The notes under the pieces are model-generated. The model saw only the letters and a list, made by a program, of their open reading frames with translations, did no database searches and was not told where the DNA came from. The translations under genes were made by a program, and so were the position numbers. Shown here one piece after another: positions 2,585 through 35,042 of a stretch of 39,796 nt of DNA. The DNA comes from Flavobacteriales bacterium. GTDB taxonomy: Bacteria; Bacteroidota; Bacteroidia; Flavobacteriales_F; PHOS-HE28. Positions within the stretch are counted from its first letter, which is position 1; every line of letters starts with the position of its first letter. The DNA is taken from contig JAHDVX010000009.1 in NCBI GenBank assembly GCA_023382455.1, positions 80,701-120,496 of the forward strand, in the 5' to 3' direction.

Positions 2585-3706
2585 ATGTCCGCACCCCTGC
2601 GCGTCCTCGTGGTAGGCCAAACACCGCCCCCTTTCGGCGGGCAGGCCATGATGGTGCAGGCCTTGTTGGACGGGCGATACGAACGGGTCGAGCTGCACCA
2701 TGTGCGCCTCCGTTACTCCGACGACATGGACAGCGTGGGCAAATTCGCCTTGCGCAAGGTGGCCGTGCTCTTTGCCACCATCCTTGATGTCTGGGTCGCG
2801 CGGTTTCGCCACGGCACCCGCATGCTCTACTATCCGCCCAGCGGGCCCAACATGGTGCCGGTGCTGCGCGATATCGTATTTCTCTGCGCCGTCCGGCCCT
2901 TCTTCAAATGGACCGTCTTCCATTTCCATGCCGGCGGGGTTTCCGGTTTCGAGCCGCACCTGCCCGCCGTGTTGCGTCCTTTCTTCCGCTGGGCCTATCG
3001 CGGCGCAGACCTTGCCATTCGTACCGCGCCGCAGAACCCGGAGGACGGCATCGCGCTTTCCGCAAAGCGGTCCATCGTGGTGCCCAACGGCATCCCCGAC
3101 ATGCGTGGCAGCGTGGTTGAGGGCACCGCTGCGGAAGGTGGACCGCTCACCATCCTTTTCACCGGCGTGCTGATCCCCTCCAAGGGCGTGCGCGTCCTGC
3201 TGGAAGCCTTCCGGCAGGTAGTGGCCCAAGGGGCCGATGTGCGGTTGGAGTTGATGGGCCGCTGGGGCGATCCGGCATTTCAGGGCGAATGCGAGGGATT
3301 CCTGCGCAACCACGGGTTGGCCGGACGGGTGACATTTCTGGGCGTGATGCACGACCGGGAGAAGCTCGAGCACTTCGCGGGTTGCGACATCTTTTGCTTC
3401 CCGAGCCATTTCGAGGCGGAGAGCTTCGGCCTGGTGCTGGTGGAGGCCATGCAATTCGCCAAGCCCGTGGTCTCCACGCATTGGCGCGGCATTCCCTCGG
3501 TGGTGCAGGACGGGGTGAACGGATTCCTGGTGCCCGTGGAGGACCCCGCCGCCGTGGCCGACCGCCTCTTGCGCCTGGTGCGGGACAAGGAACTGCGCTT
3601 GCACATGGGCATGGAAGGGCGCCGCATCTTTACCGAGCAGTTCACGTTGGAAGGGTTCCGCCGGAACATGGAGGAGGCGTTATCGGGCATTGGCGAACAG
3701 GACTGA
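2585..3706 (+). CDS. Glycosyltransferase family 4 (GT-B)
   Basis: This 373-residue cytoplasmic or membrane-peripheral enzyme should transfer a sugar from a nucleotide-sugar donor to a lipid-linked glycan. The N-terminal Rossmann half opens with LRVLVVGQTPPPFGGQ, the glycine-rich start typical of GT4. A linker near residue 180 (VVPNGI) leads to the donor half, with TGVLIPSKGV and the family's E-x7-E motif (ESFGLVLVE) near residue 280. The ATG at 2585 is required to keep the first beta strand. It is the first plus-strand gene of the polysaccharide locus; its stop is 4 bp before the ATG of the epimerase gene. The donor and linkage cannot be told from sequence. Family assignment is firm. Confidence 0.93.
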   Translation: MSAPLRVLVVGQTPPPFGGQAMMVQALLDGRYERVELHHVRLRYSDDMDSVGKFALRKVAVLFATILDVWVARFRHGTRMLYYPPSGPNMVPVLRDIVFLCAVRPFFKWTVFHFHAGGVSGFEPHLPAVLRPFFRWAYRGADLAIRTAPQNPEDGIALSAKRSIVVPNGIPDMRGSVVEGTAAEGGPLTILFTGVLIPSKGVRVLLEAFRQVVAQGADVRLELMGRWGDPAFQGECEGFLRNHGLAGRVTFLGVMHDREKLEHFAGCDIFCFPSHFEAESFGLVLVEAMQFAKPVVSTHWRGIPSVVQDGVNGFLVPVEDPAAVADRLLRLVRDKELRLHMGMEGRRIFTEQFTLEGFRRNMEEALSGIGEQD

Positions 3707-3710
3707 GCAC

Positions 3711-4730
3711 ATGAGATTGCTTGTTACCGGTGGATCCGGATTCATCGGCACCAACCTGGTGCAGCATGCGTTGGACCACGGCGTGGAGGTCCTCAATCTG
3801 GATTGGAATCCGCCCTTGAAGGCGGCCCATACACCTTGGTGGCGTGAATGGGACATCATGGACCGCGAAGCCACCAAGCGCCACCTCGCGGAGTTCAAGC
3901 CCACCCACTTGGTGCATCTGGCGGCCCGCACGGATACCGATGTGCAGGACGATATCGATGCCTATCGCCAGAACCACGAAGGCACAGCCTTGTTGCTGCA
4001 GGCCATCAAGGAATTCGGCGGTGTGGATCGACTGGTGATCACCAGCACCCAGTTCGTCTGCGAGGCCGGATACCAGCCCAAGCATGACCTGGACTTCAAA
4101 CCATTCACGCTTTATGGTGAGACCAAGCGCCGGTGCGAGATCGCCACGCGTGATGCGGGCCTGACCTGTGTGTGGAGCATCATCCGCCCCACCACCATCT
4201 GGGGGCCCTGGAGCCTTCGCTACCGCGATGTGATGTTCAAGGTGATGCGCAAGGGCCTCTATTTCCACCCGGGCAAGGCAAAGGTGGTGCGCTCTTATGG
4301 CTACGTGGGCAACGTGGTTTGGCAGATCATGCGGATCCTCGCCGCGGACCCCGCCACGGTGAACGGAAAAGTGCTCTATGTGGGCGACCCTCCCATGGAC
4401 CTGCGCGTGTGGGTGGAGGCCGTATCGCGGGAGCTGGTCCACAAGCCGGTGCGCTACATCCCCACATGGATGGTGAAGGCCCTGGCGATCACCGGTGACG
4501 TCCTGAAGTTCTTCCGCCTGCCGTTCCCCATCACCAGCGGCCGCTTCCGCAGCATGACCAGCGACTACATCACCCCGATGGACGCCACGGAAGCCGTATT
4601 GGGCAAGGCTCCCGTGGGTTTGGAGGAAGGCGTGAAGGCCACCGTGGTGTGGTATGATTCGGAGAGTGCCGCCGCACGGAAGCCCACCTTGATCGATACC
4701 CGCCAAAAGCCGATCACGCCGCATCCATGA
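3711..4730 (+). CDS. NAD-dependent nucleotide-sugar epimerase/dehydratase (extended SDR)
   Basis: This 339-residue extended short-chain dehydrogenase is likely to convert one nucleotide sugar into another in the cytoplasm. It has the NAD-binding glycine motif GGSGFIG at residues 7-13, a Ser/Thr-rich catalytic strand (ITSTQF, about 110-115) and the YxxxK pair in YGETK (Y135, K139). I chose the ATG at 3711 because the longer frame begins with a TTG inside the upstream gene and would put extra residues before the Rossmann strand MRLLVTGG. The stop overlaps the next start as ATGA, indicating translational coupling to the GT26 gene. The C-terminal substrate half is too divergent to name the sugar; UDP-glucose or UDP-GlcNAc 4-epimerase-like activity is possible but unproven. 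Confidence 0.9.
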   Translation: MRLLVTGGSGFIGTNLVQHALDHGVEVLNLDWNPPLKAAHTPWWREWDIMDREATKRHLAEFKPTHLVHLAARTDTDVQDDIDAYRQNHEGTALLLQAIKEFGGVDRLVITSTQFVCEAGYQPKHDLDFKPFTLYGETKRRCEIATRDAGLTCVWSIIRPTTIWGPWSLRYRDVMFKVMRKGLYFHPGKAKVVRSYGYVGNVVWQIMRILAADPATVNGKVLYVGDPPMDLRVWVEAVSRELVHKPVRYIPTWMVKALAITGDVLKFFRLPFPITSGRFRSMTSDYITPMDATEAVLGKAPVGLEEGVKATVVWYDSESAAARKPTLIDTRQKPITPHP

Positions 4731-5476
4731 ACGGCCTTTCCACGTCGGAGATCTTCGGTCTGAGGCTGAGCACGGGTCCGTTCAAGGACCATGTGCAGGC
4801 CATCATGGACCTTGGCCGCGCACACCGTTCTTCCTATGTCTGTTGCGTGAACGTGCACATGTGCATGGAGGCCCAGAAGGACAGCGGCTTCATGGCCGTG
4901 GTGAACGGGGCCGACCTGGCCACGGCGGACGGCATGCCCATCCTGAGAAGCCTGAACCGGTTCAACAAGCTGCGGCAGGAGCGGGTGGCGGGCAATGACC
5001 TGATGCCCGCAGTGATGGCCGAGGCGGAGAAGCAGGGCTTGTCCATTTTCCTCCAGGGTGGCGAGCAGTCGGTATTGGATACCATCCAGGCCCGTGCGCG
5101 GAAGGATTTCCCCACGTTGCGTATTGCCGGGGCTTGGTCCCCACCGTTCCGCCAGCCCACCGCCGAGGAGGAGGAGGCCGGGGTGCGGCGCATTGAGGCC
5201 AGCGGCGCCCACATCGTGCTGGTCAGCCTGGGGTGCCCGCGCCAGGAGAAGTGGATGGCCGCCATGAAAGGCCGTGTACCAGCCGTGATGCTCGGGGTTG
5301 GCGGCGCCTTCCTGCTGTATGCCGGTGTGGACAGCCGGGCACCCAAATGGATGCGCGATGCGTCATTGGAATGGCTGTACCGCTTGGCCTTGGAGCCCGG
5401 GAGGCTGTGGAAACGCTACCTGGTCACCAATTCGGCATTCATTTTGCTCTACGCGAAACGTCTGGTTCGCGGATAA
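4727..5476 (+). CDS. WecG/TagA/CpsF-family glycosyltransferase (GT26)
   Basis: This 249-residue GT26 enzyme belongs to the family that transfers N-acetylmannosamine or its uronic acid onto a GlcNAc-type polyprenyl-diphosphate acceptor, at the inner face of the cytoplasmic membrane. Family landmarks are ATADGMPI near residue 65, where the Asp is the proposed catalytic residue, and LGCPRQEKWMA near 168-178, matching the conserved GxPxQExW. The C-terminus is basic and aromatic (RLWKRYLVTN), as in membrane-associated members. It starts by a 4-bp ATGA overlap with the epimerase gene. The wecB gene at 7972 would provide UDP-ManNAc, the expected kind of donor, so ManNAc transfer is the best inference. 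ManNAcA transfer would also need a dehydrogenase, which is not seen here. Confidence 0.92.
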   Translation: MNGLSTSEIFGLRLSTGPFKDHVQAIMDLGRAHRSSYVCCVNVHMCMEAQKDSGFMAVVNGADLATADGMPILRSLNRFNKLRQERVAGNDLMPAVMAEAEKQGLSIFLQGGEQSVLDTIQARARKDFPTLRIAGAWSPPFRQPTAEEEEAGVRRIEASGAHIVLVSLGCPRQEKWMAAMKGRVPAVMLGVGGAFLLYAGVDSRAPKWMRDASLEWLYRLALEPGRLWKRYLVTNSAFILLYAKRLVRG

Positions 5477-5526
5477 GCTTCATCGAGCGACTTCATAGGT
5501 TTGTCGGCAATTTATCTTCGACCAAC

Positions 5527-5558
5527 TTGACAAAAGCATCGACGAAACGATACCTTTG
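5527..5558 (+). promoter_or_regulatory. Bacteroidetes-type promoter for the sugar transferase gene
   Basis: TTG at 5527-5529 and TACCTTTG at 5551-5558 are 21 bp apart, an exact match to the TTG/TAnnTTTG consensus. Transcription should start a few bases after 5558, which rules out the TTG codon at 5556 as the translation start and favours the ATG at 5601. Confidence 0.75.
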
Positions 5559-5600
5559 GTGCTCCGTATAAATCGTCGTGTGCGGCTATCCAGTGAAGCG

Positions 5601-6761
5601 ATGGAGAAATTGACTACCCAGACCATGGCTGATGCCCATGCACTTCCCGGGCAAAGCCATCGCCATCACCGTCCGGACCTCAACCAGGAGCTGGCCACCC
5701 TGCTTCGCTCCAGCCGCCAGCAGTTGCACAACGTGCAGCACGGCTTGCAGCGGGTGATCACGTTTGAGCCGCTCACTTCGGTAAAGGACCTGATCATCGT
5801 GGGGGAGGGGCCGGCTGCGGAGGAGATCTTCCAGTACTGTGAGGACCAGACGGTGCGGGGTTATCGCTTCCGCGGGGTTTTCCACGACCAGAGCCTTCAG
5901 GGCCCCTTGGCACCGCACCAGTTGGGAGGCATTGAGGCGGCCAAGGCCTTCGCCGTACAGAACCGGATCGATATCCTGTACTGCGCCCTGCCTGCGAAAT
6001 ACCGGGAGGAGATCACGGACCTCATGGAGTTCTGTGAACGGAACACCATCCGCTTCCGGGTCATCCCGGGCCCGGACAGCTTCATCTCCCTGGTGGAGGC
6101 CACGGACCTGACCTTCCATGGTGCCGTGCCGGTGAGCAGGCTGCGCAACGAACCGCTGGACCGCCGCGGCAACCGCCTGCTGAAGCGCTCCTTCGACATC
6201 GTCTTTTCTTTCCTGGTGATCACGCTGGTGTTCACCTGGCTCTTCCCCTTGTTGGCCCTGATGGTGAAGCTCTCCTCCAAGGGGCCGGTCTTCTTCAAGC
6301 AGACGCGTTTGGGCGAGCGCAAGAAGAAATTCACCTGCTACAAGTTCCGCAGCATGCAGATGAATGAAGAGGCGGACAGCAAGCAGGCCACCAAGGATGA
6401 TCCCCGTGTGACCCGCGTGGGCGCCTTCCTGCGCAAGAGCAACCTGGACGAGCTGCCGCAGTTCTTCAATGTGCTCCTCGGCCAGATGAGCGTGGTGGGC
6501 CCGCGGCCGCACCCCCTGAAGCTCAACGACCAGTTCCGTGACATCATCGACAAGTACATGGTGCGCCATTTCGTGCGGCCGGGCATCACCGGCTGGGCGC
6601 AGGTGAACGGCTTCCGCGGGGAGACCCGCACCCCCGAGCTCATGGAAAAGCGCGTGGAGCTCGATGTCTGGTACCTGGAGAACTGGTCCTTCAAGCTCGA
6701 CCTGAAGATCGTGGTGAAGACCGTGACCAATATGTTCCGGAAGGACGAGATGGCCTATTGA
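5601..6761 (+). CDS. Polyprenyl-phosphate sugar-1-phosphate transferase (bacterial sugar transferase)
   Basis: This 386-residue membrane enzyme would start a glycan by moving a sugar-1-phosphate from a nucleotide sugar to undecaprenyl phosphate. Residues about 60-180 form a soluble Rossmann-like CoA-binding-type domain ([14 protein letters not shown]). A hydrophobic hairpin follows at about 198-222, then the catalytic domain: KFRSMQ (248-253), LDELPQ (282-287), VVGPRPH (298-304) and [12 protein letters not shown] (326-337). WcaJ/WbaP proteins usually carry four or more N-terminal membrane helices; here they are absent and a hydrophilic, His-rich stretch (QSHRHHRP) takes their place. The ATG at 5601 is chosen because a strong promoter overlaps the longer frame. 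It has its own promoter but clearly belongs to the polysaccharide locus. Confidence 0.93.
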
Positions 6762-7971: not shown

Positions 7972-9129
7972 ATGGAACAACCGCTTCGCGTGCTCACCGT
8001 CATCGGCGCACGCCCGCAGATCATCAAGGCCGCTGCAATCAGCCATGCCGTTCGCACCCGGTTCGCGGGCCGCATTACCGAGACCTTGCTGCATACCGGC
8101 CAGCACTATGACGCCAACATGTCGCAAGTCTTCTTCGACGAACTGGGCATCCCGAGGGCGGATATTTCCCTGGGTGTCGGCAGCGGAGCGCACGGGGTGC
8201 AGACCGCCCGGATGATCGAGGGCATCGAGAACGAACTGCGCAGCGGCAACCATGACCTGGTACTGCTTTACGGCGACACCAACAGCACCCTGGCCGGGGC
8301 CGTGGCAGCCGCCAAGCTCCATGTGCCGGTGGCCCACGTGGAGGCTGGCCTGCGCTCCTTCAACAAGGACATGCCCGAGGAGATCAACCGCATCCTCTGC
8401 GACCACTGCAGCACCTGGCTGTTCTGCCCCACGCAGACCGCAGTGGACAACTTGCGGCGCGAGGGATTCGCCTTGGAGGCCACGGGTCCGGCATCCATCG
8501 ACAGGCCGCATGTGGTGGCCAGCGGTGATGTGATGTATGACAACAGCATGCGCTTCGCCGAACTCGCCGAACAGCGCTCCTCCATACTGGACAGCCTGGG
8601 CCTGCAACCGGGCGGGTTCATCCTGGCCACGGTCCACCGGGACCACAACACGGACGACCCCGTCCGGATCACGGCCATCTTCACCGCCATGCTCGACCTG
8701 CACGCGCACCACGGGCTCCCCGTGGTGCTCCCGCTCCACCCGAGGACCCGGAAGATGATGGCCACGCTGCTGCCCGCCGAGCTGGATAAGGCCGTCCGTT
8801 CCTCCTCGGGCCTGCACTTGGTACCTCCGGTCGGTTTCCTGGACATGATCGCCTTGGAACGTGGTGCCCAACTGGTGGTCACCGATAGCGGCGGCGTGCA
8901 GAAGGAAGCCTATTTCTTCGGAAAGCCGGTGGTGGTGCTGCGCCCCGAAACGGAATGGGTGGAACTGGTGGAGCGCGGGCAGGCGGTGCTTGCCGACGCC
9001 GACCAAGGCCGTATCGCGGCCGCAGCCGCCGCTTTCCTGCGGGATGGCGTTCCCGAATGCCCGCCCATCTTCGGTGATGGACATGCCGCGGAGGCTGTAT
9101 GCATGGAACTGTTGCGTTTCCGCCCCTGA
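7972..9129 (+). CDS. wecB: UDP-N-acetylglucosamine 2-epimerase (non-hydrolysing)
   Basis: This 385-residue cytoplasmic enzyme interconverts UDP-GlcNAc and UDP-ManNAc. Landmarks: IGARPQIIKAAAI at the N-terminus, TGQHYDANMS near residue 43, LYGDTNST near 97, HVEAGLRSFNKDMPEEINR near 119-137, TVHRDHN near 220, and VTDSGGVQKEAYF near 300, which together cover the catalytic acids and UDP-binding residues of the family. Length is typical. The start abuts the radC stop and the stop overlaps the next ATG by one base. Its product is the expected donor for the GT26 enzyme at 4727. No UDP-ManNAc dehydrogenase is visible in the window. Confidence 0.94.
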   Translation: MEQPLRVLTVIGARPQIIKAAAISHAVRTRFAGRITETLLHTGQHYDANMSQVFFDELGIPRADISLGVGSGAHGVQTARMIEGIENELRSGNHDLVLLYGDTNSTLAGAVAAAKLHVPVAHVEAGLRSFNKDMPEEINRILCDHCSTWLFCPTQTAVDNLRREGFALEATGPASIDRPHVVASGDVMYDNSMRFAELAEQRSSILDSLGLQPGGFILATVHRDHNTDDPVRITAIFTAMLDLHAHHGLPVVLPLHPRTRKMMATLLPAELDKAVRSSSGLHLVPPVGFLDMIALERGAQLVVTDSGGVQKEAYFFGKPVVVLRPETEWVELVERGQAVLADADQGRIAAAAAAFLRDGVPECPPIFGDGHAAEAVCMELLRFRP

Positions 9130-10313
9130 TGCTCCGTTCCGTCCTCCAGTATGCCTCGTGGTTCTCCGTTGCCCTGCGGGATTCGCGGCTGCGCACCGTG
9201 TTGCGCTCGCATGCGAGGCCCGTGGACCCTGCCGGGGAGCCGCTGGACACCTTGGTGCCGGCTGCATTGGGCGCGCTTGCCGGCCACCTGCGGAAAGCGC
9301 AGGACAGCGGCCCCGATCGCGGCTTGGGCAGCTTCCACTTGGTACAGGGCTGGGGGGGCTCCTATCCCGAAACCACCGGATACCTGGTGCCCACCATGCT
9401 GGCCATGGCGCGGCGGCTCGGGGATGACGACCTGCGCAAACGTGCCCTGGCGGCAGCGGATTGGCTCGTTTCCATCCAGCGGCCAGACGGCGGGTGGCAG
9501 GGGGGGCGTGTGGGGGAGGACCGGCCTTCGGTGGTGTTCAACACCGCGCAAGTGGTGCGCGGCCTGATGGCGGTCCATGATGCGGATGGCGGCGCCGGAT
9601 ACATGAAGGCGGCGGAGCGGGCATGCGAATGGATCCTGCGTGTGCAGGAGCCGGACGGTTCCTGGGCCGGCCACAATTTCCTGGGTGTTCGCCGGGTTTA
9701 TGACACGTACGTAAGCGCGCCCTTGCTGCACATGGCTGAACGGACGGGAAGGAATGCATTCCGCGAGGCGGCGCTGCGCAACCTGCGGTGGGTCCTCTCC
9801 CGGCAGCAGCCCAACGGCTGGTTTGCCGATGCGGACAATACCGTGAAACACAATGCCCGGCCCATCACCCACACCATCGCCTACACGGTGGACGGCCTGC
9901 TGGAATGCCACTTGCGAACGGGGGACCGGCAGTGGCTGGACGCCGCGATACGGCCCGCGCAGGCCATGTTGGATGAGTACGGGCGGATCGGCCTGCTGCG
10001 TGGGCGGTACAATGCGCAGTGGCATGGCACCGAGGCCGCCATCACCACAGGCTGTGCCCAGTTCGCCATCGTATGGGCACGGCTCCACCGGCTCACCGGC
10101 GATCCGCGTTGGCAGCAGGGTTGCGAAGGCATGGTGCGGTGGCTGGTGGCCATTCAGCGGCGTTCAGCGGCGGGACCTGATCCCATGCATGGCGCCGTCA
10201 CCGGGTCTTTTCCCTTCTGGGGGCGCTATGAGAAGTTCGCTTGCCCGAACTGGGCCCAGAAGTACTTCGCGGATGCCCTACTTTGCACCGAAGGCCAGCT
10301 TCCCCGCCATTGA
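9129..10313 (+). CDS. Alpha/alpha-toroid protein of unknown function in the glycan locus
   Basis: This 394-residue protein shows repeated helical hairpins with QxxDGxW-like turns: SIQRPDGGWQGG, RVQEPDGSWAGH and RQQPNGWF, at intervals of about 60 residues. That pattern is shared by squalene-cyclase/prenyltransferase-fold proteins and six-hairpin glycosidase and lyase toroids. No signal peptide is clear, so it is probably cytoplasmic. The terpene cyclase DxDD motif was not found. Start options are the ATG at 9129, overlapping the wecB stop by one base (TGATG), or the ATG at 9099; I chose 9129. Placement between wecB and the adenylation gene suggests a role in making or modifying the glycan, such as epimerase, lyase or hydrolase. 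That is inference; I do not recognise a specific family. Confidence 0.8.
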   Translation: MLRSVLQYASWFSVALRDSRLRTVLRSHARPVDPAGEPLDTLVPAALGALAGHLRKAQDSGPDRGLGSFHLVQGWGGSYPETTGYLVPTMLAMARRLGDDDLRKRALAAADWLVSIQRPDGGWQGGRVGEDRPSVVFNTAQVVRGLMAVHDADGGAGYMKAAERACEWILRVQEPDGSWAGHNFLGVRRVYDTYVSAPLLHMAERTGRNAFREAALRNLRWVLSRQQPNGWFADADNTVKHNARPITHTIAYTVDGLLECHLRTGDRQWLDAAIRPAQAMLDEYGRIGLLRGRYNAQWHGTEAAITTGCAQFAIVWARLHRLTGDPRWQQGCEGMVRWLVAIQRRSAAGPDPMHGAVTGSFPFWGRYEKFACPNWAQKYFADALLCTEGQLPRH

Positions 10314-10319
10314 CGGTAG

Positions 10320-11792
10320 ATGAACACACCTTCCTTCGATCCCGTGGACCTGTTCCTGGCCTCCGTGCGGGCCGTGCCTGACAGGCCGGCCTTGGAGGTG
10401 GACGGCCGGGCGTGGACCTATGCCGAGCTCGACGAGCTTTCCCGACGCGTTGCGGGCTGGTGCGAGGCCAACTGCGGCGGTGTTGGGCGAGTGGCCGTGC
10501 ACGGCGCCAAGACCGTGCTCGCCTATGCGGGCATCCTCGGTGTGCTCCGCTCGGGCCGGGCCTATGTGCCGCTTCACCCCGATCACCCCGCCGGGCGTTG
10601 GCAAAGCATCCTGCAGCGCTCCGGTGTGCGGTCGGTGATCGCCCCGGCCGAAGCCCAAGCCGATCTTCGCGTTGCAGGTGCCGGGCATTTCCTGGACCTT
10701 GAAAGCTTGCCAACGGCATTGGCAACAAGCACCGCGCGGCACACGGACGAGGCCTACGTCATGTTCACCTCGGGCAGCACCGGCGAGCCGAAAGGTGTAC
10801 CGGTGGGCCGGGTGCAGTTGACGGCTTACCTGCGGCACGTGTGCACGGCCTATTCATTCACTTCCACGGACCGGTTTTCCCAGTTCTTCGCCCTTTCCTT
10901 CGACCTGAGCGTGCACGACCTATTTGTCTGCTGGTCCGCCGGTGCCTGTCTCTGTGTCCCGCCCGGCGACGGTGCCCTCCAATCCAAGGCGTTCATCCGC
11001 GACCAAGGCATCACCGTGTGGTTCTCCGTCCCTTCCCAAGCGGCGCTGCTCCAGCGGATGAAGGCCTTGCAGCCGGGATCGATGCGGCTGCTTCGCCGCG
11101 CATTTTTCTGCGGGGAAGCGCTGACCGCCGACCTCGCCCGGGCTTGGGTGCAGGCGGCACCCGAAGCCGAGGTGGTGAACCTGTACGGCCCCACGGAGAC
11201 CACGATCGCCATCGCGGAGCAGAAGGTCTTACCAGGCCATTGGGAAGTGCCCGGCGGCATCATTCCCTTGGGCAAACCCTTCCCGGACCATATCGCCCGG
11301 GTCAGGGATGGGAACGACTTGCACGAACAGGGCGAAGGCGAGCTCGTGTTGTCCGGGCCGCAGGTGAATGCGGGCTACATCGGCGATGCTGCTCGATCCA
11401 AGGCGTTTTTCGTTGCAGAGGGCAGGAAGTGGTATGCCACGGGCGACCGCGTGTTGGTGGATGAAGCGGGGGTGTTGCACTTCCTGGGCCGCATGGACGG
11501 GCAAGTGAAGCTGGCCGGACACCGCGTGGAGCCGGGGGAGATCGATGCATTGTTGGGGCCCAAGCTCGGCGGCGGCCGTGCGGTCACGGTGGCGGTCCAG
11601 CGTTCCGGGGCCACGGAGCTCGCTACCTTTATCGATGTGGAAATGGACCCGGTGGTGCTGTATGCCGCGCTGCGCGAGAAGTTGCCGGCCTACATGCTGC
11701 CGGCGCGCATTCTTTTCGTGGACCGGTTCCCGTTGGGCCCCCACGGGAAGCTGGACCGAAAGGCATTGATCGAACGAGCAACCCATGGATAG
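10320..11792 (+). CDS. Amino-acid-type adenylation enzyme (ANL superfamily, stand-alone)
   Basis: This 490-residue enzyme should activate a carboxylic acid with ATP and load it on the phosphopantetheine arm of the carrier protein encoded next. The adenylation core motifs are intact: MFTSGSTGEPKG (148-159), FDLSVHDLF (194-202), NLYGPTETT (287-295), YATGD, GRMDGQVKLAGHRVEPGEID, and the catalytic lysine in GPHGKLDRKAL near the C-terminus. The Asp in FDLS (D195) sits where NRPS adenylation domains and DltA hold the substrate alpha-amino group, so an amino acid is the likely substrate. It begins 6 bp after the toroid gene and overlaps the carrier-protein gene by 8 bp. No condensation or thioesterase domain is present. 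The substrate cannot be read reliably by eye. Confidence 0.92.
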   Translation: MNTPSFDPVDLFLASVRAVPDRPALEVDGRAWTYAELDELSRRVAGWCEANCGGVGRVAVHGAKTVLAYAGILGVLRSGRAYVPLHPDHPAGRWQSILQRSGVRSVIAPAEAQADLRVAGAGHFLDLESLPTALATSTARHTDEAYVMFTSGSTGEPKGVPVGRVQLTAYLRHVCTAYSFTSTDRFSQFFALSFDLSVHDLFVCWSAGACLCVPPGDGALQSKAFIRDQGITVWFSVPSQAALLQRMKALQPGSMRLLRRAFFCGEALTADLARAWVQAAPEAEVVNLYGPTETTIAIAEQKVLPGHWEVPGGIIPLGKPFPDHIARVRDGNDLHEQGEGELVLSGPQVNAGYIGDAARSKAFFVAEGRKWYATGDRVLVDEAGVLHFLGRMDGQVKLAGHRVEPGEIDALLGPKLGGGRAVTVAVQRSGATELATFIDVEMDPVVLYAALREKLPAYMLPARILFVDRFPLGPHGKLDRKALIERATHG

Positions 11793-12033
11793 GCAGGAAG
11801 TGAGGAAATGGATCGTGGACCATGCCGGTGAGCGCTTCGCGCGCATCGGGCTGCACGCGGACGAGGTGACCGATGACCTTGACCTGCTGCACACCGGCGT
11901 GCTGGATTCCTTGGCCTTCGTGGACCTTTTCGCTGCCCTGATCGATGCCACGGGGAAGGACCTCGACCTGGAGTCGTCCTTGGCAAAGAGCGGTTCCACC
12001 ACACTCGGCGGCCTGGTGAAGCTGTTCACCTGA
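11785..12033 (+). CDS. Acyl/peptidyl carrier protein
   Basis: This 82-residue carrier protein has the phosphopantetheine attachment site in TGVLDSLAFVDLF (Ser42 within DSL) and the usual four-helix pattern. It overlaps the adenylation gene by 8 bp, so the two are translationally coupled and almost certainly a functional pair, like DltA with DltC. It is not a fatty-acid AcpP by sequence; no fab genes are near. No phosphopantetheinyl transferase is seen, so a genome-encoded one must activate it. The GNAT gene follows after 4 bp. Confidence 0.92.
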   Translation: MDRQEVRKWIVDHAGERFARIGLHADEVTDDLDLLHTGVLDSLAFVDLFAALIDATGKDLDLESSLAKSGSTTLGGLVKLFT

Positions 12034-12037
12034 AGGA

Positions 12038-12514
12038 ATGGAACAGGTGGCGTACAAAGTGATCGTGGACGAACGGGACCCGGCATTGCCGGCCGTACAG
12101 GACCTGTTCACACGGATGCACCACGAGATGGCCTCCCAGGGCATGGGCCTGTCCTTGGCCGAGGGTGGGGCGGGGCTGTGGTGCGCGTCCGTGTCCCGCG
12201 GACTGGAGCGCTTCAACAGGCTGGTGATCGCCATGCACGGCGAACGCGTGGTGGGCTTCGCCCACGGGGCCGTGAAGCTGGCCCCGGAGCATCTGGGCGG
12301 CATGCGGTTGGGCCACATTTCCCACGTGCACGTGGCGGTTGATGCGCGCGGAAAGGGGATCGGCCGGGGCATGGTCGACCTGCTGCATGCATGGTTCGCC
12401 GACCGGGAAGTGGCCTCCATTGAATTGCACGTACTGGCCGGCAACGATGCGGGCCAGGCGTTCTGGCGATCATTGGGCTACCGTGTGGAACTCCTTCAAC
12501 TGCGCAAGGGCTGA
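12038..12514 (+). CDS. GNAT family N-acyltransferase
   Basis: This 158-residue protein is a single-domain GNAT. The acyl-donor pyrophosphate loop is VDARGKGIGRGM (about 101-112, matching R/QxxGxG/A), and the C-terminal signature is NDAGQAFWRSLGYR. The family transfers acyl groups from CoA, or in some cases from carrier proteins, to amines. Given the carrier protein 4 bp upstream, a role in moving or capping the activated acyl group on an amino sugar is plausible. Acceptor and donor are inferred, not visible. Start is the ATG at 12038; no other early Met would retain the fold. The next gene starts 3 bp after the stop. Confidence 0.9.
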   Translation: MEQVAYKVIVDERDPALPAVQDLFTRMHHEMASQGMGLSLAEGGAGLWCASVSRGLERFNRLVIAMHGERVVGFAHGAVKLAPEHLGGMRLGHISHVHVAVDARGKGIGRGMVDLLHAWFADREVASIELHVLAGNDAGQAFWRSLGYRVELLQLRKG

Positions 12515-12517
12515 GAG

Positions 12518-13366
12518 ATGGACGTGATGGGCTGGCCCGCACGGTGCGGCATAGGCACAGGGAGCACCGTGCTGCTAATGGCCGACCTGACGCGCATGGC
12601 CTGGCGTGCGCGCCGGGCCGGGTCGCGCTTGGGGGCGGAGCTCCTGCTCGATGCTTTCCTTGGGGCCGTGGGTCCCGCTGGAACGCTGCTGGTGCCCACC
12701 TACAACTTTGACCTGCGGAGCGGGGAGCCGTACGACCCCGGGCACACACCGCCGATCACCGGGGTCTTGGGCGTTGCGGCCTTGGCCCATCCCGCATTCA
12801 AGCGGACCCCCCACCCGCTGCATTCCTTCGCCGTTGCGGGCGGTGGGGCGCAAGCCTTCCTGGAGGCAAGCGATCCCAGCAGTTTCGGTCCCGCATCGGC
12901 CTTTGCCCTGCTCCGCAGGAATAAGGCGCTCCAAGTGATCCTGGATCTTCCGCTGAACGATGCGCTCACCTATGTGCACCACGTGGAGGAATTGGAGCGT
13001 GTGCCCTACAGGCGATGGCGCACGGTGCATCTCCGCGTCACCGGTGCCGCGGACGGGCCGGAATCACGGGCTTACCGGCAGTTCGCCAAGAAGCCGGGGC
13101 ACAGCAACCGTTTGCACACCTTGGAGCCTGCACTGGTTTCCGCCGGTGCCCTGCACACGGCATCCTTGGACGGTACGGAAGCGCTGATAGTGGACCTGGC
13201 TGCAGCGCACGAGGTGATCGCCACGGACATCCGTACCAACCAGGCGCGCCGCATCCACGCTTTCAGTCGGGAGCGCTGGTTGCGGGATATATTGAAGCCG
13301 CTTCTGGGGCGCGAACCGTCGCGCTCCGCACGGATGCTTGAGAACCATGCTGCTCGTCAAGCTTGA
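12518..13366 (+). CDS. AAC(3)-like N-acyltransferase (antibiotic_NAT fold)
   Basis: This 282-residue protein matches the aminoglycoside 3-N-acetyltransferase fold: VGPAGTLLVPTYNFDLRSGE (about 50-69), PYDPGHTPPITGVLG, the active-site segment RTPHPLHSFAVAG (about 93-105), and FGPASAFALL. The usual N-terminal HSSL is replaced by MADL, so this is a divergent member. Family enzymes acylate amino groups with acyl-CoA; in glycan clusters the acceptor is more likely a nucleotide-linked or lipid-linked amino sugar than a drug. Resistance is therefore not the expected role. It lies 3 bp after the GNAT gene and overlaps the following gene by 20 bp. Two different acyltransferases beside one carrier protein suggests a two-step or two-site decoration. 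Confidence 0.88.
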   Translation: MDVMGWPARCGIGTGSTVLLMADLTRMAWRARRAGSRLGAELLLDAFLGAVGPAGTLLVPTYNFDLRSGEPYDPGHTPPITGVLGVAALAHPAFKRTPHPLHSFAVAGGGAQAFLEASDPSSFGPASAFALLRRNKALQVILDLPLNDALTYVHHVEELERVPYRRWRTVHLRVTGAADGPESRAYRQFAKKPGHSNRLHTLEPALVSAGALHTASLDGTEALIVDLAAAHEVIATDIRTNQARRIHAFSRERWLRDILKPLLGREPSRSARMLENHAARQA

Positions 13367-14639
13367 TGATCCCGGCCCCCGCGCGCGCTATGCCGTGAAC
13401 CATCTGCTGGGCCGCATGACCGGCTGGCCGCTGCGGTTTGCCGGCAGTGAGGAGGAGTTCAGAAGCAGTTCGTTGCCCAAGGTGCGCTACGGTGAACCGG
13501 ACGATGAGGCCACGGTGTACACCATTCACGCCAGCGGCGGACTGATACCGGGCCGATCCGATGAACCTGCCGTGGGTACGGTGGAAGGGTTTCCGGTGCT
13601 CTTTCCTTCAGCCCACGGACACGATCCCATCGCGGGTGCCTTTTTCCTGCTGGCCCGTTCGGAGGAGTATGGGGCTCATGTTCGCGATACGCACGGCCGA
13701 CTGCCGTCTGCGGAACATTTTTCGGTGAGGCACGGTTTCGAGCAGGTCCCGGTGGTGGACCATTGGGCGGGGAAGCTCGCCATGGACCTGCGGCAACGGT
13801 ATCCGGGTTTACCGCCGACCACGGCCCAGTATCGCCATGTGTTGACCGTGGACGTGGACAACGGCTTGATGGTGCTGGGCCGGCCTGCATGGAAACAGGC
13901 CGGTGCCGTGGCCCGCGATGCCTTGCGTGGCGATGTGCGCCAGGCCATGTTGCGCATGCGGGTGATCAGGGGTTCGGCCGCCGATCCATTCGATCGCTAC
14001 GAAAGTCTTGGGGACCTTGCGCGTTCCGGTGCCGTGGACCGGTTGATCGTCTTCATGCTCATGCGCGGCAACGGTGCGAACGATCATGCCTCCGATCCCC
14101 GGCATCCCGTGATGGCCCGGCGGCTGAAAGCCATGGATGGCGCACTCGAGCTGGGCCTGCATCCGTCCTACCGGAGCAGCGGGGATCCACGGGTCATGCA
14201 AGGAGACCTTCAAGCATTGGTGGAGTTGCTGGGGCGCCCGGTCCGCATCAGCAGGCAGCATTTCCTCCGATGGAGGCTGCCCGAAACACCGCGTGACCTG
14301 CTCGGCCTTGGGATCAAGGAGGACCACACCATGGGTTTTGCCGATAGGCCCGGATTCCGCTGCGGAACCTGTACGCCCTTCCCCTGGTATGACCTCGGCC
14401 AGGAGCGGGAGACCGACCTGATGCTCTGGCCGTTCGCCGCCATGGACAGCGCGTTGCACGATCGCATGGGGCTCGCACCTGCCGAGGCGGCCAAGGTGAT
14501 GGGCACGTTGAGCGACCGGGTGCGTGCCGTGAAGGGCACGTTCGTCAGCGTATGGCATGATCGCTTCCTCAGCGGTTACGGCCCTTGGCGCGGTTGGCCG
14601 GAGGCCATGCAGGAACTGGTGGAAAAGGCGAGGCCATGA
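13347..14639 (+). CDS. Polysaccharide deacetylase-like protein with N-terminal accessory domain
   Basis: This 430-residue protein resembles Bacteroidetes polysaccharide-deacetylase family proteins. Its first roughly 140 residues form an accessory domain (IAGAFFLLARSEEY is characteristic). The C-terminal half has the NodB-like landmarks: LTVDVDN near residue 170, taking the place of TFDDG, and GLHPSYRS near 270, taking the place of the HxxxH metal pair. RQHFLRW and IKEDHTMGFADRPGFRCG follow. Only one His is clear in the HxxxH position, so catalysis is uncertain. The ATG at 13347 overlaps the upstream gene by 20 bp; a TTG at 13338 is less likely. It would expose an amine for acylation if active on N-acetylhexosamine. 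Membership is fairly sure; activity is not. Confidence 0.82.
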   Translation: MLLVKLDDPGPRARYAVNHLLGRMTGWPLRFAGSEEEFRSSSLPKVRYGEPDDEATVYTIHASGGLIPGRSDEPAVGTVEGFPVLFPSAHGHDPIAGAFFLLARSEEYGAHVRDTHGRLPSAEHFSVRHGFEQVPVVDHWAGKLAMDLRQRYPGLPPTTAQYRHVLTVDVDNGLMVLGRPAWKQAGAVARDALRGDVRQAMLRMRVIRGSAADPFDRYESLGDLARSGAVDRLIVFMLMRGNGANDHASDPRHPVMARRLKAMDGALELGLHPSYRSSGDPRVMQGDLQALVELLGRPVRISRQHFLRWRLPETPRDLLGLGIKEDHTMGFADRPGFRCGTCTPFPWYDLGQERETDLMLWPFAAMDSALHDRMGLAPAEAAKVMGTLSDRVRAVKGTFVSVWHDRFLSGYGPWRGWPEAMQELVEKARP

Positions 14640-15535
14640 TCGAGCATCTGGAACATCGGGCGATCGACCGCGAGGAATGGGACCGCACCTTGGCCGGCTG
14701 TGCCAACCGGAACTGGTATGCGCGTTCCTGGGTGCTCGATATCGCCTCTCCCGGCTGGAACGCCCTGGTGGACCGCGAGCGCGGTGCCATCATGCCCTTG
14801 ACCTGGCGGTCGCGCTGGGGCATCCGCTACCTGCATCAGCCTTTCGGGTTGCAGCAGCTGGGCGTTTTCGCCCGCGACCCGGACCACGGTGTATCGGATG
14901 CATTCCTGCGCGCCGTGCCTGCGAGCTACCGGTACTGGGACATTTACCTGAATGAGGCCATAGGCGGCGTCCCTGTGGGCCGCACGCAGCCATGCACCCA
15001 GCAAGTGGTGGACATCACCGGCGATGCGGCCGTGCAGCGTGCGGCCTATTCACAAGGGCATCGGCGCAACCTGCGCAAGGCGGAGCCGTTCCGCGAGCTG
15101 ATCACCGGGGCCATCTCGGCGCGTGAGTTCACGGCGTTGTTCACGGCCACCACCGGTGCGCGGTACGGCATACCGGACCGCGACCTGCAGATGATGGAAC
15201 TGCTCATCGATAAGGCCATCCTGCGGGGCGAAGCATGCATGCTGGGCATGCGCGATGGCGGGCAAGTGGTGGCCGCGGCCTGCATCGTGGAGGCCGAAGA
15301 CCGAGCGATCTTCCTGAAATCCGCCGCCAATGAGCGTGGCCACGAGCTGCACGCGATGTTCCTGCTGGTGGACCATTACCTCACCCGCATGGGGCGTGCC
15401 GGCCGGGTTTTCGACTTCGCCGGCTCCAACACCCCGTCCGTGGCGCGCTTCAACGCCGGGTTCGGTGCACGGTCGGCGATATATTTACGCCTGCTGCGGA
15501 ACGCGCTCCCCGCGCCGCTCCGATGGCTCAAATGA
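14636..15535 (+). CDS. FemAB-like GNAT acyl/aminoacyltransferase
   Basis: This 299-residue protein looks like the FemAB/Acetyltransf_6 branch of GNAT. Characteristic pieces are the mid-protein GHRRNLRKAE (about 142-151) and the C-terminal FDFAGSNTPSVARFNAGFG (about 261-279), equivalent to the YDFGGS..FKxxFG signature. Relatives in polysaccharide and peptidoglycan pathways transfer amino acids or acyl groups to amine acceptors. The start overlaps the deacetylase stop as ATGA, so it is coupled to the decoration run. A TTG 51 bp upstream is rejected for the same reason. With the adenylation enzyme and carrier protein upstream, this is the most plausible aminoacyl transfer enzyme of the set, but the link is inference. 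Confidence 0.86.
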   Translation: MIEHLEHRAIDREEWDRTLAGCANRNWYARSWVLDIASPGWNALVDRERGAIMPLTWRSRWGIRYLHQPFGLQQLGVFARDPDHGVSDAFLRAVPASYRYWDIYLNEAIGGVPVGRTQPCTQQVVDITGDAAVQRAAYSQGHRRNLRKAEPFRELITGAISAREFTALFTATTGARYGIPDRDLQMMELLIDKAILRGEACMLGMRDGGQVVAAACIVEAEDRAIFLKSAANERGHELHAMFLLVDHYLTRMGRAGRVFDFAGSNTPSVARFNAGFGARSAIYLRLLRNALPAPLRWLK

Positions 15536-16197
15536 CCGACAAGCGCATGGTGGTTGAACTGGACCAGGTGAATACGGTGGCGAACCGCTTTCTGGCGGAG
15601 TTGCGTGATGTGGATGTGCAGAAGGACCCGTTGCGTTTCCGCCGCAACCTGGAGCGTATGGGCGAGGTGTTCGCCTATGAACTGAGCAAGACCCTCGACT
15701 ATGAGGAGCGCGAGGTGGTGTCTCCCTTGGGCGTGGCCAACGTCCGCCTGCCGGCCGACCAGCCGGTGTTGTGCACCATCCTGCGGGCCGGCCTGCCGCT
15801 GCACCAAGGCTTGCTGAATTATTTCGACCGTGCGGACAATGCCTTCGTGAGCGCCTATCGCAAGCACCGGAAAGGGGAGGATGGATTCGACGTGGAGGTG
15901 GAGTATCTCAGCAGCCCGTCCATCGACGACCGCGTACTGATCATCAGCGACCCCATGCTGGCCAGCGGGCGTAGCATGGTCCTGGTGTACAAGGCCATGC
16001 TGCGCATGGGCAAGCCCAAGGCCATCCATGTGGTCTCCGTGATCGCGAGCACCGAGGGCGTGGAGTATGTGAAGAAGCATTTCCCACCGAACACCCGCTT
16101 CTGGCTGGGTGCCGTGGACGAGGAGATGACCGCGGAGGCCTACATCGTTCCCGGCCTGGGCGATGCCGGCGACCTGGCCTACGGCTGCAAGGTGTGA
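15532..16197 (+). CDS. upp: Uracil phosphoribosyltransferase
   Basis: This 221-residue enzyme makes UMP from uracil and PRPP in pyrimidine salvage. The PRPP-binding loop is VLIISDPMLASGRSM (about 134-148) and the uracil-binding C-terminus is VPGLGDAGDLAYG. LCTILRAGLPLHQG near 78-91 is also conserved. Two starts are possible: ATG at 15523, or ATG at 15532, which overlaps the upstream stop as ATGA; I chose 15532. The housekeeping gene is thus physically coupled to the end of the polysaccharide decoration run, probably by shared transcription rather than by pathway. Confidence 0.95.
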   Translation: MTDKRMVVELDQVNTVANRFLAELRDVDVQKDPLRFRRNLERMGEVFAYELSKTLDYEEREVVSPLGVANVRLPADQPVLCTILRAGLPLHQGLLNYFDRADNAFVSAYRKHRKGEDGFDVEVEYLSSPSIDDRVLIISDPMLASGRSMVLVYKAMLRMGKPKAIHVVSVIASTEGVEYVKKHFPPNTRFWLGAVDEEMTAEAYIVPGLGDAGDLAYGCKV

Positions 16198-23077: not shown

Positions 23078-25123
23078 CTACTTCCCTTCCAACCCCTTCA
23101 GCCGCTTCTCCACCAGGAATTGCTGCAGTGCATCCATCCGGGCGTTGAGCTCCTGGATGTACAGGGCCTGGTCCTCCACCGCCACCCACAGCTGATTGGT
23201 GATCTGGTCGAGGCTGAAGGAACCCTGGCTGTTCCACGCATGGCGGCCGTCCACATTGGGCATGCGCCGCTGGTTGGCCACGAATGCAGGGTAATCCTTC
23301 AGGGGGGTATACATGTAGTTGTCGGCCGCCTTGGAATCCTCCGGCCTGACCTGGCCGTCATAGTACAGGTCGAATACATAGTCGTTGAGCAGGGAGATGT
23401 TGGACCAGGCGCTATGCTGCGCCGTGATGGTGCCAGGGCCGCGGAAACTGTAGGTGGGGAAGGCGCCTGAAGCGGCCCAAGCCGCATCGCCCACCATCAC
23501 ACCCTCCTCGGCAAACATGTAGTTGCCCACGTCATACGCCGCCCCGCCACCGGTGTATTTGGCCAGGAAGGCCACGCGGGGCAGGGAATTGCGCAAGGCC
23601 GTGCCGCCGCTGCCACCCCAGTTCGCCGGGTCCCCATCACAAGCCAAGGTGCTGGTGGCCTCGGTAAGCGACCAACCACCCACATACCCCCAGCCCATTG
23701 CCAAAGCATTTGTGCCGGGCATGCCATTGGTGGGTGTGGTGGGCGGGTAATAAAAGGTTGCTGGTGGGGTGTTGTCCCAAAGGCAGGTGGAAAAACCCGT
23801 GCCTCCACAGGCATCGCAGTACATGCTGAGCATACTGGTGTAGGTGGTGTTGTAGCTCTGCACGGAGGCTTCCCTGGCCGGCCAGTCCTGGTTGTCCACC
23901 GATGCGTCGATCAGCAGGTTGTTCCCCGACCAATAGAAGTTGACGCCGACATCCGCCGGATGCACGTTCCAGCCGGTCTGCACCGTGTAGCCGGTGGCAT
24001 GGCTGGCGTTATAGGAAGGCGGCGGCCCGGCGATCTCCGGCGGATTGGGGTTGGAATATTCGACCAAAGCCACGTTGTCATAAACGGCCGCCGTGGTGAG
24101 CACCGTGTTCTTCATCCGGAAGCGGAGGAAGTGGAGGCGGTAGGTGCTGCCCGTCACGCCGGATGCGTTGAAGGCAATGGCCCGGATGGGATTGGACGGG
24201 CCTGGGCAGATGCCCGCGGCGGAGAGGTCTGCGGCCAGGAACAAGTATTGCCTGCGCGAATCTTCCCAAAGGCCATAATAGGGGGAATCCCGGCCGCCGA
24301 GCACACCAAAACCGGAGGTGGGCCCCGGGATCGGCCATGGCCTTGGGGTGGCCACCACGGCTGCCGGTGTGGTGGCCGTGTTGGTGGGGTCCTGGCACAA
24401 GGCGGTTACCTGCTGGGTCTGTTGGATCTTGCGTTCCTGGAAGTTGTTGTCGATCTGCTTCCATCCCCGAACTGTGGAGACCAGGCCGGGAACGGACATG
24501 CTATTCCAGATATAACCCTCAAAGCGCCCCCGGTCGCTTCCACCGGTGGCCGGCACGTAGCGGATGGCCCCCTCGTTGTTGCCATTGCTGCCGCCGTTGA
24601 GCTTCACGCCACCCTGCACGTGCACCAGGTCGGTGACGGGCGATGCCGCTGGTGGGGCCGGCCATGCCGGGTACTGGGAGTAAAGTTGCCAACTACCGGT
24701 CTCGGAAATACGGCCGCGATCATAGTTGGCCACGCGGAAGATCAGCGGGGCGTTGTTGGTGGTCCCGATGAACATGGTGTTCGTGGTGCCGGCATTGCCG
24801 CCGAGTTGCCAGATGCGCTCGTTCCAGACGATGTGCTTCCACCCCGCGATAGGGGTTACCGGATCGTAGTAGTAGAACCCCATGGGTTCAATGGTCACCG
24901 AATCGGTCTGGTAGATCAGCAGCCCGGCGGCAGGCGTGGGGATGGCATTGCGCTGGGCGCGTGTCATACGCGGGATGAGCAGGCCCTTTGTGGTGCTGCT
25001 GATGTCCAGCATGGCATTGACCGCCGGGGCCGCGGCACTGCTGTTGATGGCCACTTGGGCATGGAGCCGCCCCGTTATCAGGGCCAGGAGAAGTGCCAGC
25101 AGCACCAGTGCCCGGCGATGCAT
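23078..25123 (-). CDS. Tail-fibre-like surface protein, tandem paralog 3 of 3
   Basis: This is a secreted protein of about 681 residues. The start chosen is the ATG at 25123, which gives a clean signal peptide (MHRRALVLLALLLAL...HAQ). An ATG at 25207, 2 bp after the upstream gene, would add 28 residues. Then come the Bacteroidetes leader AMLDISSTTKGLLIPRM, a strand-rich region, and a central jelly-roll-like domain (RQYLFLAADLSAAGICPG ... WSGNNLLIDASVDN). It also holds a cysteine cluster, CDACGGTGFSTC. The C-terminal segment has NDYVFDLYYDGQVRPED, RRMPNVDGR and a short coiled coil (EDQALYIQELNARMDALQQF). No T9SS sorting domain or S74 autoprotease core is visible. It is the last gene of a three-gene operon; its function is unknown. 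Confidence 0.85.
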   Translation of the reverse strand: MHRRALVLLALLLALITGRLHAQVAINSSAAAPAVNAMLDISSTTKGLLIPRMTRAQRNAIPTPAAGLLIYQTDSVTIEPMGFYYYDPVTPIAGWKHIVWNERIWQLGGNAGTTNTMFIGTTNNAPLIFRVANYDRGRISETGSWQLYSQYPAWPAPPAASPVTDLVHVQGGVKLNGGSNGNNEGAIRYVPATGGSDRGRFEGYIWNSMSVPGLVSTVRGWKQIDNNFQERKIQQTQQVTALCQDPTNTATTPAAVVATPRPWPIPGPTSGFGVLGGRDSPYYGLWEDSRRQYLFLAADLSAAGICPGPSNPIRAIAFNASGVTGSTYRLHFLRFRMKNTVLTTAAVYDNVALVEYSNPNPPEIAGPPPSYNASHATGYTVQTGWNVHPADVGVNFYWSGNNLLIDASVDNQDWPAREASVQSYNTTYTSMLSMYCDACGGTGFSTCLWDNTPPATFYYPPTTPTNGMPGTNALAMGWGYVGGWSLTEATSTLACDGDPANWGGSGGTALRNSLPRVAFLAKYTGGGAAYDVGNYMFAEEGVMVGDAAWAASGAFPTYSFRGPGTITAQHSAWSNISLLNDYVFDLYYDGQVRPEDSKAADNYMYTPLKDYPAFVANQRRMPNVDGRHAWNSQGSFSLDQITNQLWVAVEDQALYIQELNARMDALQQFLVEKRLKGLEGK

Positions 25124-25209
25124 TCCCAGGTGGGGGACGGTCGCGGCCATGGCCCAAGCACGGTGCCTGCGCGCGGAAAGGAATTTCGGATGTGGAGCGG
25201 GGACCATGG

Positions 25210-34900: not shown

Positions 34901-35000
34901 TGGTGGCTTGGACTTGTCCGGTGCCCAGCCAGGCCATGGCGAGGAGGAGATAGAGGCGTGCACGAAGTCCTTGCGGAAGCTTTGCGTAGCGAGGGGTCAT
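31983..35000 (-). CDS. Large T9SS-secreted protein with three beta-sandwich repeats and a CUB domain
   Basis: This 1005-residue protein starts at the ATG at 35000; the frame's earlier TTG at 35006 is less likely. Order: signal peptide (about 10-32); three tandem domains of about 135 residues (about 33-165, 172-305, 312-445), two introduced by PPANDNPC linkers; a CUB-like domain (451-553, GGMFYDSGGPSGNYSNNENF ... SFDDLTIHDGNS); a beta domain (CVYLLQLHDSNGNGWGSSA); a WYFFSPQTAGTIGFTITP module; VELLSLEA...VQWATAIEQ; and a type A sorting domain (PSIFPNPAADELSVVF to the end). Many Cys and Asn/Thr residues fit an extracellular protein. The C-terminal half is paralogous to the 29828-31693 gene. Such mixes occur in Bacteroidetes adhesins and secreted enzymes; no catalytic domain is seen. 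Confidence 0.93.
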   Translation of the reverse strand: MTPRYAKLPQGLRARLYLLLAMAWLGTGQVQATTCAGAITLNPASLPITNQALVCGGTNDLNSTNVPGALCGTGDIDSYKNGNEALYTLTPTTTGLYNVNVTGQTWSSVQVWAGCPTSGGTCIYGDGNSAASTTITVTLNAGTQYYIWFDTWPSPASPCPGTFSIGPPPPPPANDNPCGATTLTANASCVYTSSTTVNATATTGVPAPGCASYNGGDVWFKVVVPPSGGLIFDTNTGVVTDGGMALYTAPACSGPFTLVTCDDDASANGLMPMITAAGLTPGSTVYVRFWEYSNDNPGTFSICAQTYTPPTPPANDNPCNATVAAVNSGTTCVTQTPGTVAGATASGLPATPCSGTPDNDVWFRFTATSTTHYISLNNVAGNTTDMYHAIYSGSCGSLTNIACSDADQSTVTGLTVGNTYWIRVYTYWTNSPAANTTFNLCITSPPPPPVCGGMFYDSGGPSGNYSNNENFTYVICPPAGQVAILIFSQFHTESFDDLTIHDGNSAAAPVIGTYSGTTLPPPIIASNPTGCLTVVFDSDGSVINPGWAAQVVCQTLPAGDCVYLLQLHDSNGNGWGSSAVRVRINGGAWTSHTVTGSDNFALIGVNMGDLIEIDYVASGPNQGQNSWTISKLGQFPYYSSPTPPTPGIAWSQVVTCGPPPHPPQDCLGGITICNSQSITHNSTDWGWTMDLNSGNQGCLSSEHMGTWYFFSPQTAGTIGFTITPASNDDYDFAVWGPFSSAQCPTGPPLRCSWNAPPSYEVGLGNGATDLSEDAWGDGWVKTIDALAGEVYVLYVDNWSTSGQAFTLSWQLSGGSSLDCTTLPVELLSLEAFARDPAIDVQWATAIEQQSSHFNVQRSADNVHFSTIGTMPAAGNSQFRTDYLFVDQHPFRGVNYYRLEQVDHDGTTMRTYTVAATLFQGSTNPSIFPNPAADELSVVFPEPVQAGTQLQVLDATGRVISSLQAATAPGLRTALVPLDGIAKGWYQLHILNPGGALLHHGVFLKQ

Positions 35001-35042
35001 CAACAAGGTTTTGGGGGGTGACCATCGGGGTTAATGGCCGCA

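Follow-up and report, generated by a model that had tools for sequence, protein, structure and literature searches.

In a 39,796-nt window of contig JAHDVX010000009.1 from a Flavobacteriales bacterium, we found a gene run with two layers: a widespread core encoding an epimerase, a VimE-like and a VimA/FemABX-like protein, and a rarer add-on encoding a barrel protein, an adenylation enzyme, a carrier, a GNAT and an AAC(3)-like enzyme. We propose, with a probability of roughly 55%, that the add-on supplies a second, glycine-derived group to the linking sugar of the Wbp/Vim pathway. If true, this would be a second way of giving an amino acid to the sugar thought to tie secreted proteins to the Bacteroidota surface. 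We regard the run as a real, conserved cassette that appears to extend a known pathway, by a mechanism deduced from sequence.

Organization and distribution of the gene run

The initial annotation had described six tightly packed genes, and all six were found where it had placed them, with Pfam and NCBIfam matches in agreement with their labels. On the plus strand, they encode a stand-alone adenylation enzyme (10320..11792; PF00501, 202 bits), a carrier protein (11785..12033; PF00550, 16.7 bits, a weak match below the gathering score of 20.8), a GNAT acyltransferase (12038..12514; PF00583, 41.8 bits), an AAC(3)-fold N-acyltransferase (12518..13366; PF02522, 79 bits), a VimE-like N-deacetylase (gene 5, 13347..14639; DUF7033, 70.9 bits) and a VimA-like FemABX aminoacyl transferase (gene 6, 14636..15535; PF13480, 34.7 bits). 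Consecutive frames are spaced by -8, +4, +3, -20, and -4 bp. The six do not make up the whole unit, as the run begins earlier with a WecB/WbpI-type non-hydrolysing UDP-sugar 2-epimerase gene (wecB, 7972..9129, +; TIGR00236, 273.9 bits, above the cut-off of 210) and a gene encoding an (alpha/alpha)6-barrel protein (9129..10313, +; frame open from 9099, likely start 9129). The latter is a seventh gene that seems to belong with the add-on and had been missed. At the other end, the FemAB-like gene is overlapped by a gene (15523..16197, +) outside the proposed pathway which we take to encode uracil phosphoribosyltransferase (upp); a homologue lies downstream in most neighbour loci compared. Rfam and tRNA scans of the whole window yielded no hits. 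Just upstream of the run, positions 2585-6761 hold an exopolysaccharide-type cluster (glycosyltransferases, epimerase, WecG-like, sugar-phosphate transferase; some labels assigned by eye), which is also present at locus L080.

The order wecB, gene 5, FemAB, upp is held in loci of the same genus wherever the contig reaches. Between wecB and gene 5, these loci carry either nothing, the barrel gene alone, the full add-on, or the barrel and AAC3 genes. The full insert of barrel, adenylation, carrier, GNAT and AAC3 genes occurs in the window and in seven other same-genus loci, as well as in L034, where it is cut by the contig end, while barrel and AAC3 without the other add-on genes occur in a single locus, L057. 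At 21 of the 30 loci of the genus, counting the window, no adenylation gene accompanies the VimE-FemAB pair, and for this reason we assign vimE-vimA to the core and the other five genes to the add-on. A profile search identified no AAC3 gene anywhere in 14 same-genus genomes that have the pair. In a sample of the phylum, the AAC3 profile at E 1e-15 matched just 5 of 296 genomes, the window's genome among them, indicating that the add-on is rare.

A GTDB genome scan using the adenylation alignment yielded 185 relatives, and the best 80 of these loci were retained. All six genes occur in the same order in 18 of these best 80 loci: 13 have titles that name Flavobacteriales or otherwise Bacteroidota, and the titles of the other five name Bacteroidales (L102, L105, L106, L111, L127; 37-41% identity). 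Seven of the 13 appear to be genomes of the same-genus set, and L100 is titled a Chryseobacterium gleum MAG. Co-occurrence of the six genes elsewhere, suggested earlier as a check, was thus observed in 18 genomes besides the window's, which by title or placement belong to two Bacteroidota orders. The block of adenylation, carrier, GNAT and AAC3 genes is also present without vim genes in the locus DNA of L098, L104, L107, L114, L130, L132 and L143. In L098 and L130 the block is unlinked, and these genomes share PorU coordinates with G007 and G026, both of which are barrel-only at the vim locus. The block may serve other acceptors and can be regarded as a portable unit.

Several loci showed further arrangements. 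L102, L106 and L136 (and L110, which is cut) carry a second VimE-like gene ahead of the barrel gene; the cassette of L102 and L106 comprises two deacetylase-like and two transferase-like genes, and that of L136 has no FemAB match and an AsnB-like gene after VimE (by eye), reminiscent of WbpS. Six myxobacterial loci (L096, L109, L113, L116, L118, L121) display the order adenylation-AAC3-carrier with no GNAT or vim match in the locus DNA. L144 and L146 (Litorilituus, Colwellia) have adenylation, carrier and AAC3 genes, in L144 near flagellin and apparent nonulosonate genes (labels by eye).

The core pair, sugar supply and PorU

According to the accessible part of PMC7468200, the proposed roles in the Wbp/Vim pathway are removal of the 2-N-acetyl group for VimE and addition of serine or glycine for VimA, an amide bond attaches the sugar to the C terminus of T9SS cargo, and the pathway of T. 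forsythia also includes a predicted epimerase, BFO_2566. A route in which an amino sugar is first deacetylated and then aminoacylated has thus already been published, and in this respect the cassette is not the undescribed one that the initial annotation had put forward as a candidate. The only NCBIfam match of gene 5 is NF053580, the VimE model (UDP-2,3-diacetamido-2,3-dideoxy-glucuronate deacetylase), at 140 bits and E 7.9e-41, well below the cut-off of 440. All 21 aligned relatives match this model at E 0.001 (best E 4.1e-56), and a homologue was found in 55 of 58 genomes, the window's genome counted. In the window's genome itself only one VimE-like gene was found. The FemAB-like gene adjoins it with an overlap of 4 bp and is predicted to encode a protein of FemABX fold, in line with the pairing of a deacetylase-like and a FemAB-like protein noted before.

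Genes for the supply of the sugar are located elsewhere in the genome. A WbpE-like gene scored 335 bits, with WbpE among the best structures; the closest structures to the WbpD- and WbpB-like genes were 3MQG (229 bits) and 3Q2I/3Q2K (199 bits), presumably the WlbA/WlbB entries. All three genes lie on contig C1, the WbpD- and WbpB-like genes adjacent to each other. The UDP-sugar dehydrogenase found in the genome resembles TuaD rather than specifically WbpA. Across the genus, the WbpD-like gene was present in 28 of 35 genomes, including all nine with the add-on and 12 of 14 that lack the barrel gene at the locus.

The sortase PorU is encoded in the window's genome (1225.8 bits, cut-off 420), and of 24 genomes whose add-on is complete or cut by a contig end, 23 exceeded this cut-off and one, G359, had weak matches only. 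Taking PorU as present at E 0.001 or better (197 of 222 genomes are over the cut-off), FemAB-like matches, of which those under about 80 bits possibly represent other FemAB families, occurred in 54 of 222 genomes with PorU vs 2 of 74 without in one sample, and within the class in 29 of 63 vs 0 of 10 (p 0.005), the genomes being related and not independent. Within the class, VimE-like genes were not associated with PorU (28 of 63 vs 5 of 10, p 0.75), and in five PorU-negative loci of the same class the VimE-like gene stands without FemAB. For these reasons, the presence of a VimE-like gene does not by itself point to the pathway. Two proteins encoded in the window on the minus strand (29831-31693 and 31986-35006) carry T9SS type A sorting domains (27.7 and 24.9 bits, cut-off 23) and are likely T9SS cargo. 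Positions 23078-29603 (minus strand) hold three adjacent large paralogues of one family with no NCBIfam match at E 0.001.

These distributions bear on whether the locus instead modifies the repeat unit of an ordinary O-antigen or exopolysaccharide, with no role in protein attachment. We consider this rather unlikely. The exopolysaccharide-type cluster just upstream, the position of the adenylation-carrier-GNAT-AAC3 block among other glycan genes in L132, and the failure of VimE-like genes to track PorU within the class all speak for it, but FemAB-like matches do track PorU (29 of 63 vs 0 of 10 in the class), the cassettes of L102 and L106 lie among non-glycan genes (labels by eye), and the Wbp-like genes are encoded elsewhere in the genome, as the locus tags of P. 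gingivalis suggest for that species likewise.

The predicted fold of gene 6 (pLDDT 94.3) matched Sbb17 (Z 23.1), FemX (22.2) and FemA (21.4). Aminoacyl-tRNA-dependent peptide synthases and FemA/FemX together occupied Z 20.4-23.1, with the next row at 16.4, at 9-16% identity over the aligned residues. TIGR03019 was matched by 7 of 20 aligned gene 6 relatives, the window's own protein not among them. Since the fold groups with tRNA-dependent enzymes and the core occurs alone, aminoacyl-tRNA is probably the amino acid source of the FemAB-like enzyme, as judged from the model, which suggests that VimA-type enzymes are tRNA-dependent, although function does not follow from a common fold. The gene run would therefore hold two routes of amino acid supply. 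The initial annotation had placed the FemAB-like protein in a carrier-dependent cassette. In one alternative the carrier replaces tRNA, the FemAB-like enzyme takes glycine from it, and the GNAT and AAC(3)-like enzymes edit elsewhere. The presence of the FemAB-like and add-on genes in one run fits such an arrangement; against it stand the 21 of 30 loci where the pair has no adenylation gene beside it and the grouping of the fold with the tRNA-dependent enzymes. As the pair also occurs without AAC3, the carrier is not required for the FemAB-like step, and we regard the alternative as improbable.

A predicted glycine branch

The adenylation enzyme scored 316.4 bits with TIGR01733 (cut-off 317.4). 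The Asp of its FDLS motif, D195, and Ser42 of the carrier are invariant in all eight aligned rows of the respective protein. The pocket code, mapped by hand onto what we take to be the GrsA positions, reads DLHSFCLIAK. The best match to the pocket region (residues 180-300) was 4OXI (E 8.8e-28); this is AlmE, the glycine enzyme of Vibrio cholerae, according to the accessible parts of PMC12930378 and PMC11253843. Next in the ranking came 8K4R, IdnL7 6AKD (Gly, Ala, Ser), and DltA. In the alignment with AlmE, whose residues are D L H T F C L I A, eight of nine compared positions are identical and the ninth is Ser for Thr. Two of these AlmE positions, L248 and C316, have been probed by mutagenesis (PMC11253843, accessible part), and D247, L248 and C316 correspond to D195, L196 and C264 in the window enzyme, a glycine-type pocket.

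The same code was present in 28 of 88 aligned adenylation proteins (seven genomes were entered twice, as same-genus genomes and as named loci), including most add-on loci, five of them titled Bacteroidales. It also occurs in the gammaproteobacterial locus L137, which is without the add-on. Among add-on loci the code deviates in L041/L092, in L106, where L replaces F, and in L136, where M replaces F. The predicted substrate is an amino acid and not a fatty acid, as had been read from the Asp alone, and glycine is our best guess for the amino acid loaded; the specificity check proposed earlier thereby gave a prediction. Loading of a fatty acid was rejected on the basis of the amino-acid-type pocket and the conserved Asp. 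A paper on the O-polysaccharide of F. psychrophilum describes, in its accessible part, a carrier-linked route for a fatty-acid-like acyl group and not for an amino acid.

The GNAT gene stands between the carrier and AAC3 genes in all 18 complete loci. Its product scored 36.3 bits with the RimI model, under the cut-off of 86.4, and possibly acetylates carrier-bound glycine. The AAC(3)-like protein matched FrbF and AAC(3) structures in a profile search, and its residues H154 and E157 are invariant in 10 rows. A role in aminoglycoside resistance was rejected, as the resistance models scored 38.5 and 38.4 bits, far below their cut-offs of 420 and 270. Enzymes of the AAC(3) type N-acylate amino sugars, which would fit a 3-N-acylation by the AAC(3)-like enzyme and the glycyl carrier in place of WbpD. 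The WbpE product does have a free 3-amine (PMC7468200, accessible part), but the WbpD-like gene is kept in all nine add-on genomes of the genus, which argues that the AAC(3)-like enzyme does not stand in for WbpD and makes this reading very unlikely.

The alignment of the barrel protein comprised 22 rows, and its structure model had pLDDT 91.3 and pTM 0.91. By VIA, the model matched unsaturated glucuronyl hydrolase with Z 33 and cellobiose 2-epimerases with Z of about 31, the two folds lying within about 2-3 Z; the AprG transaldolase, a Foldseek match to the protein, was absent among the 50 VIA matches listed. Among 35 same-genus genomes searched by profile, six of them undetermined and all related and not independent, AAC3 occurred anywhere in 14 of 15 whose locus has the barrel gene vs 0 of 14 whose locus lacks it (p 2e-7). 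The exception, G006, is an assembly 84% complete, and G024, scored as barrel-less at the locus, carries a cut barrel-like frame about 8 kb off. Because the barrel and AAC3 genes co-occur in the genus even when unlinked, the barrel protein seems to be part of the add-on.

From gene content, order, conservation, similarities and co-occurrence, we infer the reactions, their order, the acceptor, and the use of the product by PorU. Much of the reasoning in the initial annotation carries over into this proposal. Wbp-type enzymes encoded elsewhere in the genome would produce UDP-2,3-diacetamido-uronic acid, which the WecB-like enzyme would epimerise. The VimE-like enzyme would then take off one N-acetyl group, and the FemABX-like (VimA) enzyme would load the freed amine with an amino acid, most likely from aminoacyl-tRNA. 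In the add-on, the AlmE-like enzyme would activate glycine and charge Ser42 of the carrier, the GNAT may acetylate the carrier-bound glycine, and the AAC(3)-like enzyme would pass the (N-acetyl)glycyl group on from the carrier, with an amine of the sugar or of the amino acid added by VimA as the acceptor. A change to the sugar of some kind would be the part of the barrel protein, and the product would be the site where PorU joins secreted proteins. That only a single VimE-like gene was found to free an amine counts against this proposal. Some Gram-positive sortases use an oligoglycine bridge; a glycyl group on or beside the tRNA-derived amino acid placed by VimA might likewise give PorU a longer glycyl-aminoacyl nucleophile, an idea that we consider speculative and unlikely. 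The carrier-dependent branch can be tested with purified proteins.

Comparison with known systems

The likeness to Dlt-type D-alanylation pointed out in the initial annotation holds for the adenylation enzyme and carrier (DltA/DltC) and for a Cys at the position of C269 in DltA. It does not extend to the pocket, which is nearest to AlmE: the corresponding residues of DltA 3E7W are D L M S M C T V A, and four of nine positions differ (H and F each for an M, L for T, I for V). DltB and DltD had no match among the eight genes from wecB to FemAB. The AlmE/AlmF/AlmG system for lipid A glycinylation in V. cholerae likewise combines a stand-alone glycine-type adenylation enzyme with a separate carrier (PMC12930378, PMC11253843, accessible parts). 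In contrast to that system, the likely transferase here is of AAC(3) fold and sited with sugar-nucleotide enzymes. An AlmG-like lipid A glycyltransferase had no match at E 0.01 among the same eight genes. The predicted fold of gene 6 is shared with the aminoacyl-tRNA-dependent Sbb17/Sba18 of streptothricin synthesis and FemABX.

With the Wbp/Vim pathway of Porphyromonas gingivalis and Tannerella forsythia, as presented in the accessible part of PMC7468200, the locus and its genome share VimE-like, FemAB-like and epimerase genes, WbpB/D/E-like genes and PorU. The barrel protein, adenylation enzyme and carrier, GNAT and AAC(3)-like enzyme are extra, and the accessible main text of that paper makes no mention of an adenylation enzyme, acyl carrier or AMP-binding. 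Titles and opening lines of abstracts in the literature within reach, which excludes most subscription journals, held nothing that links Wbp/Vim sugars to an adenylation enzyme or a carrier protein. What seems to be new here is therefore a branch for carrier-bound glycine grafted onto the Wbp/Vim core. In Prevotella intermedia, an N-alanyl-deoxyhexose linker also places an amino acid on the sugar joined to T9SS cargo; this species is said to be without VimA and VimE, its alanine transfer is described as unexplained, and several pathways are expected (PMC11969387, accessible part). The locus described here names candidate genes for one variant of amino acid supply to T9SS linking sugars.
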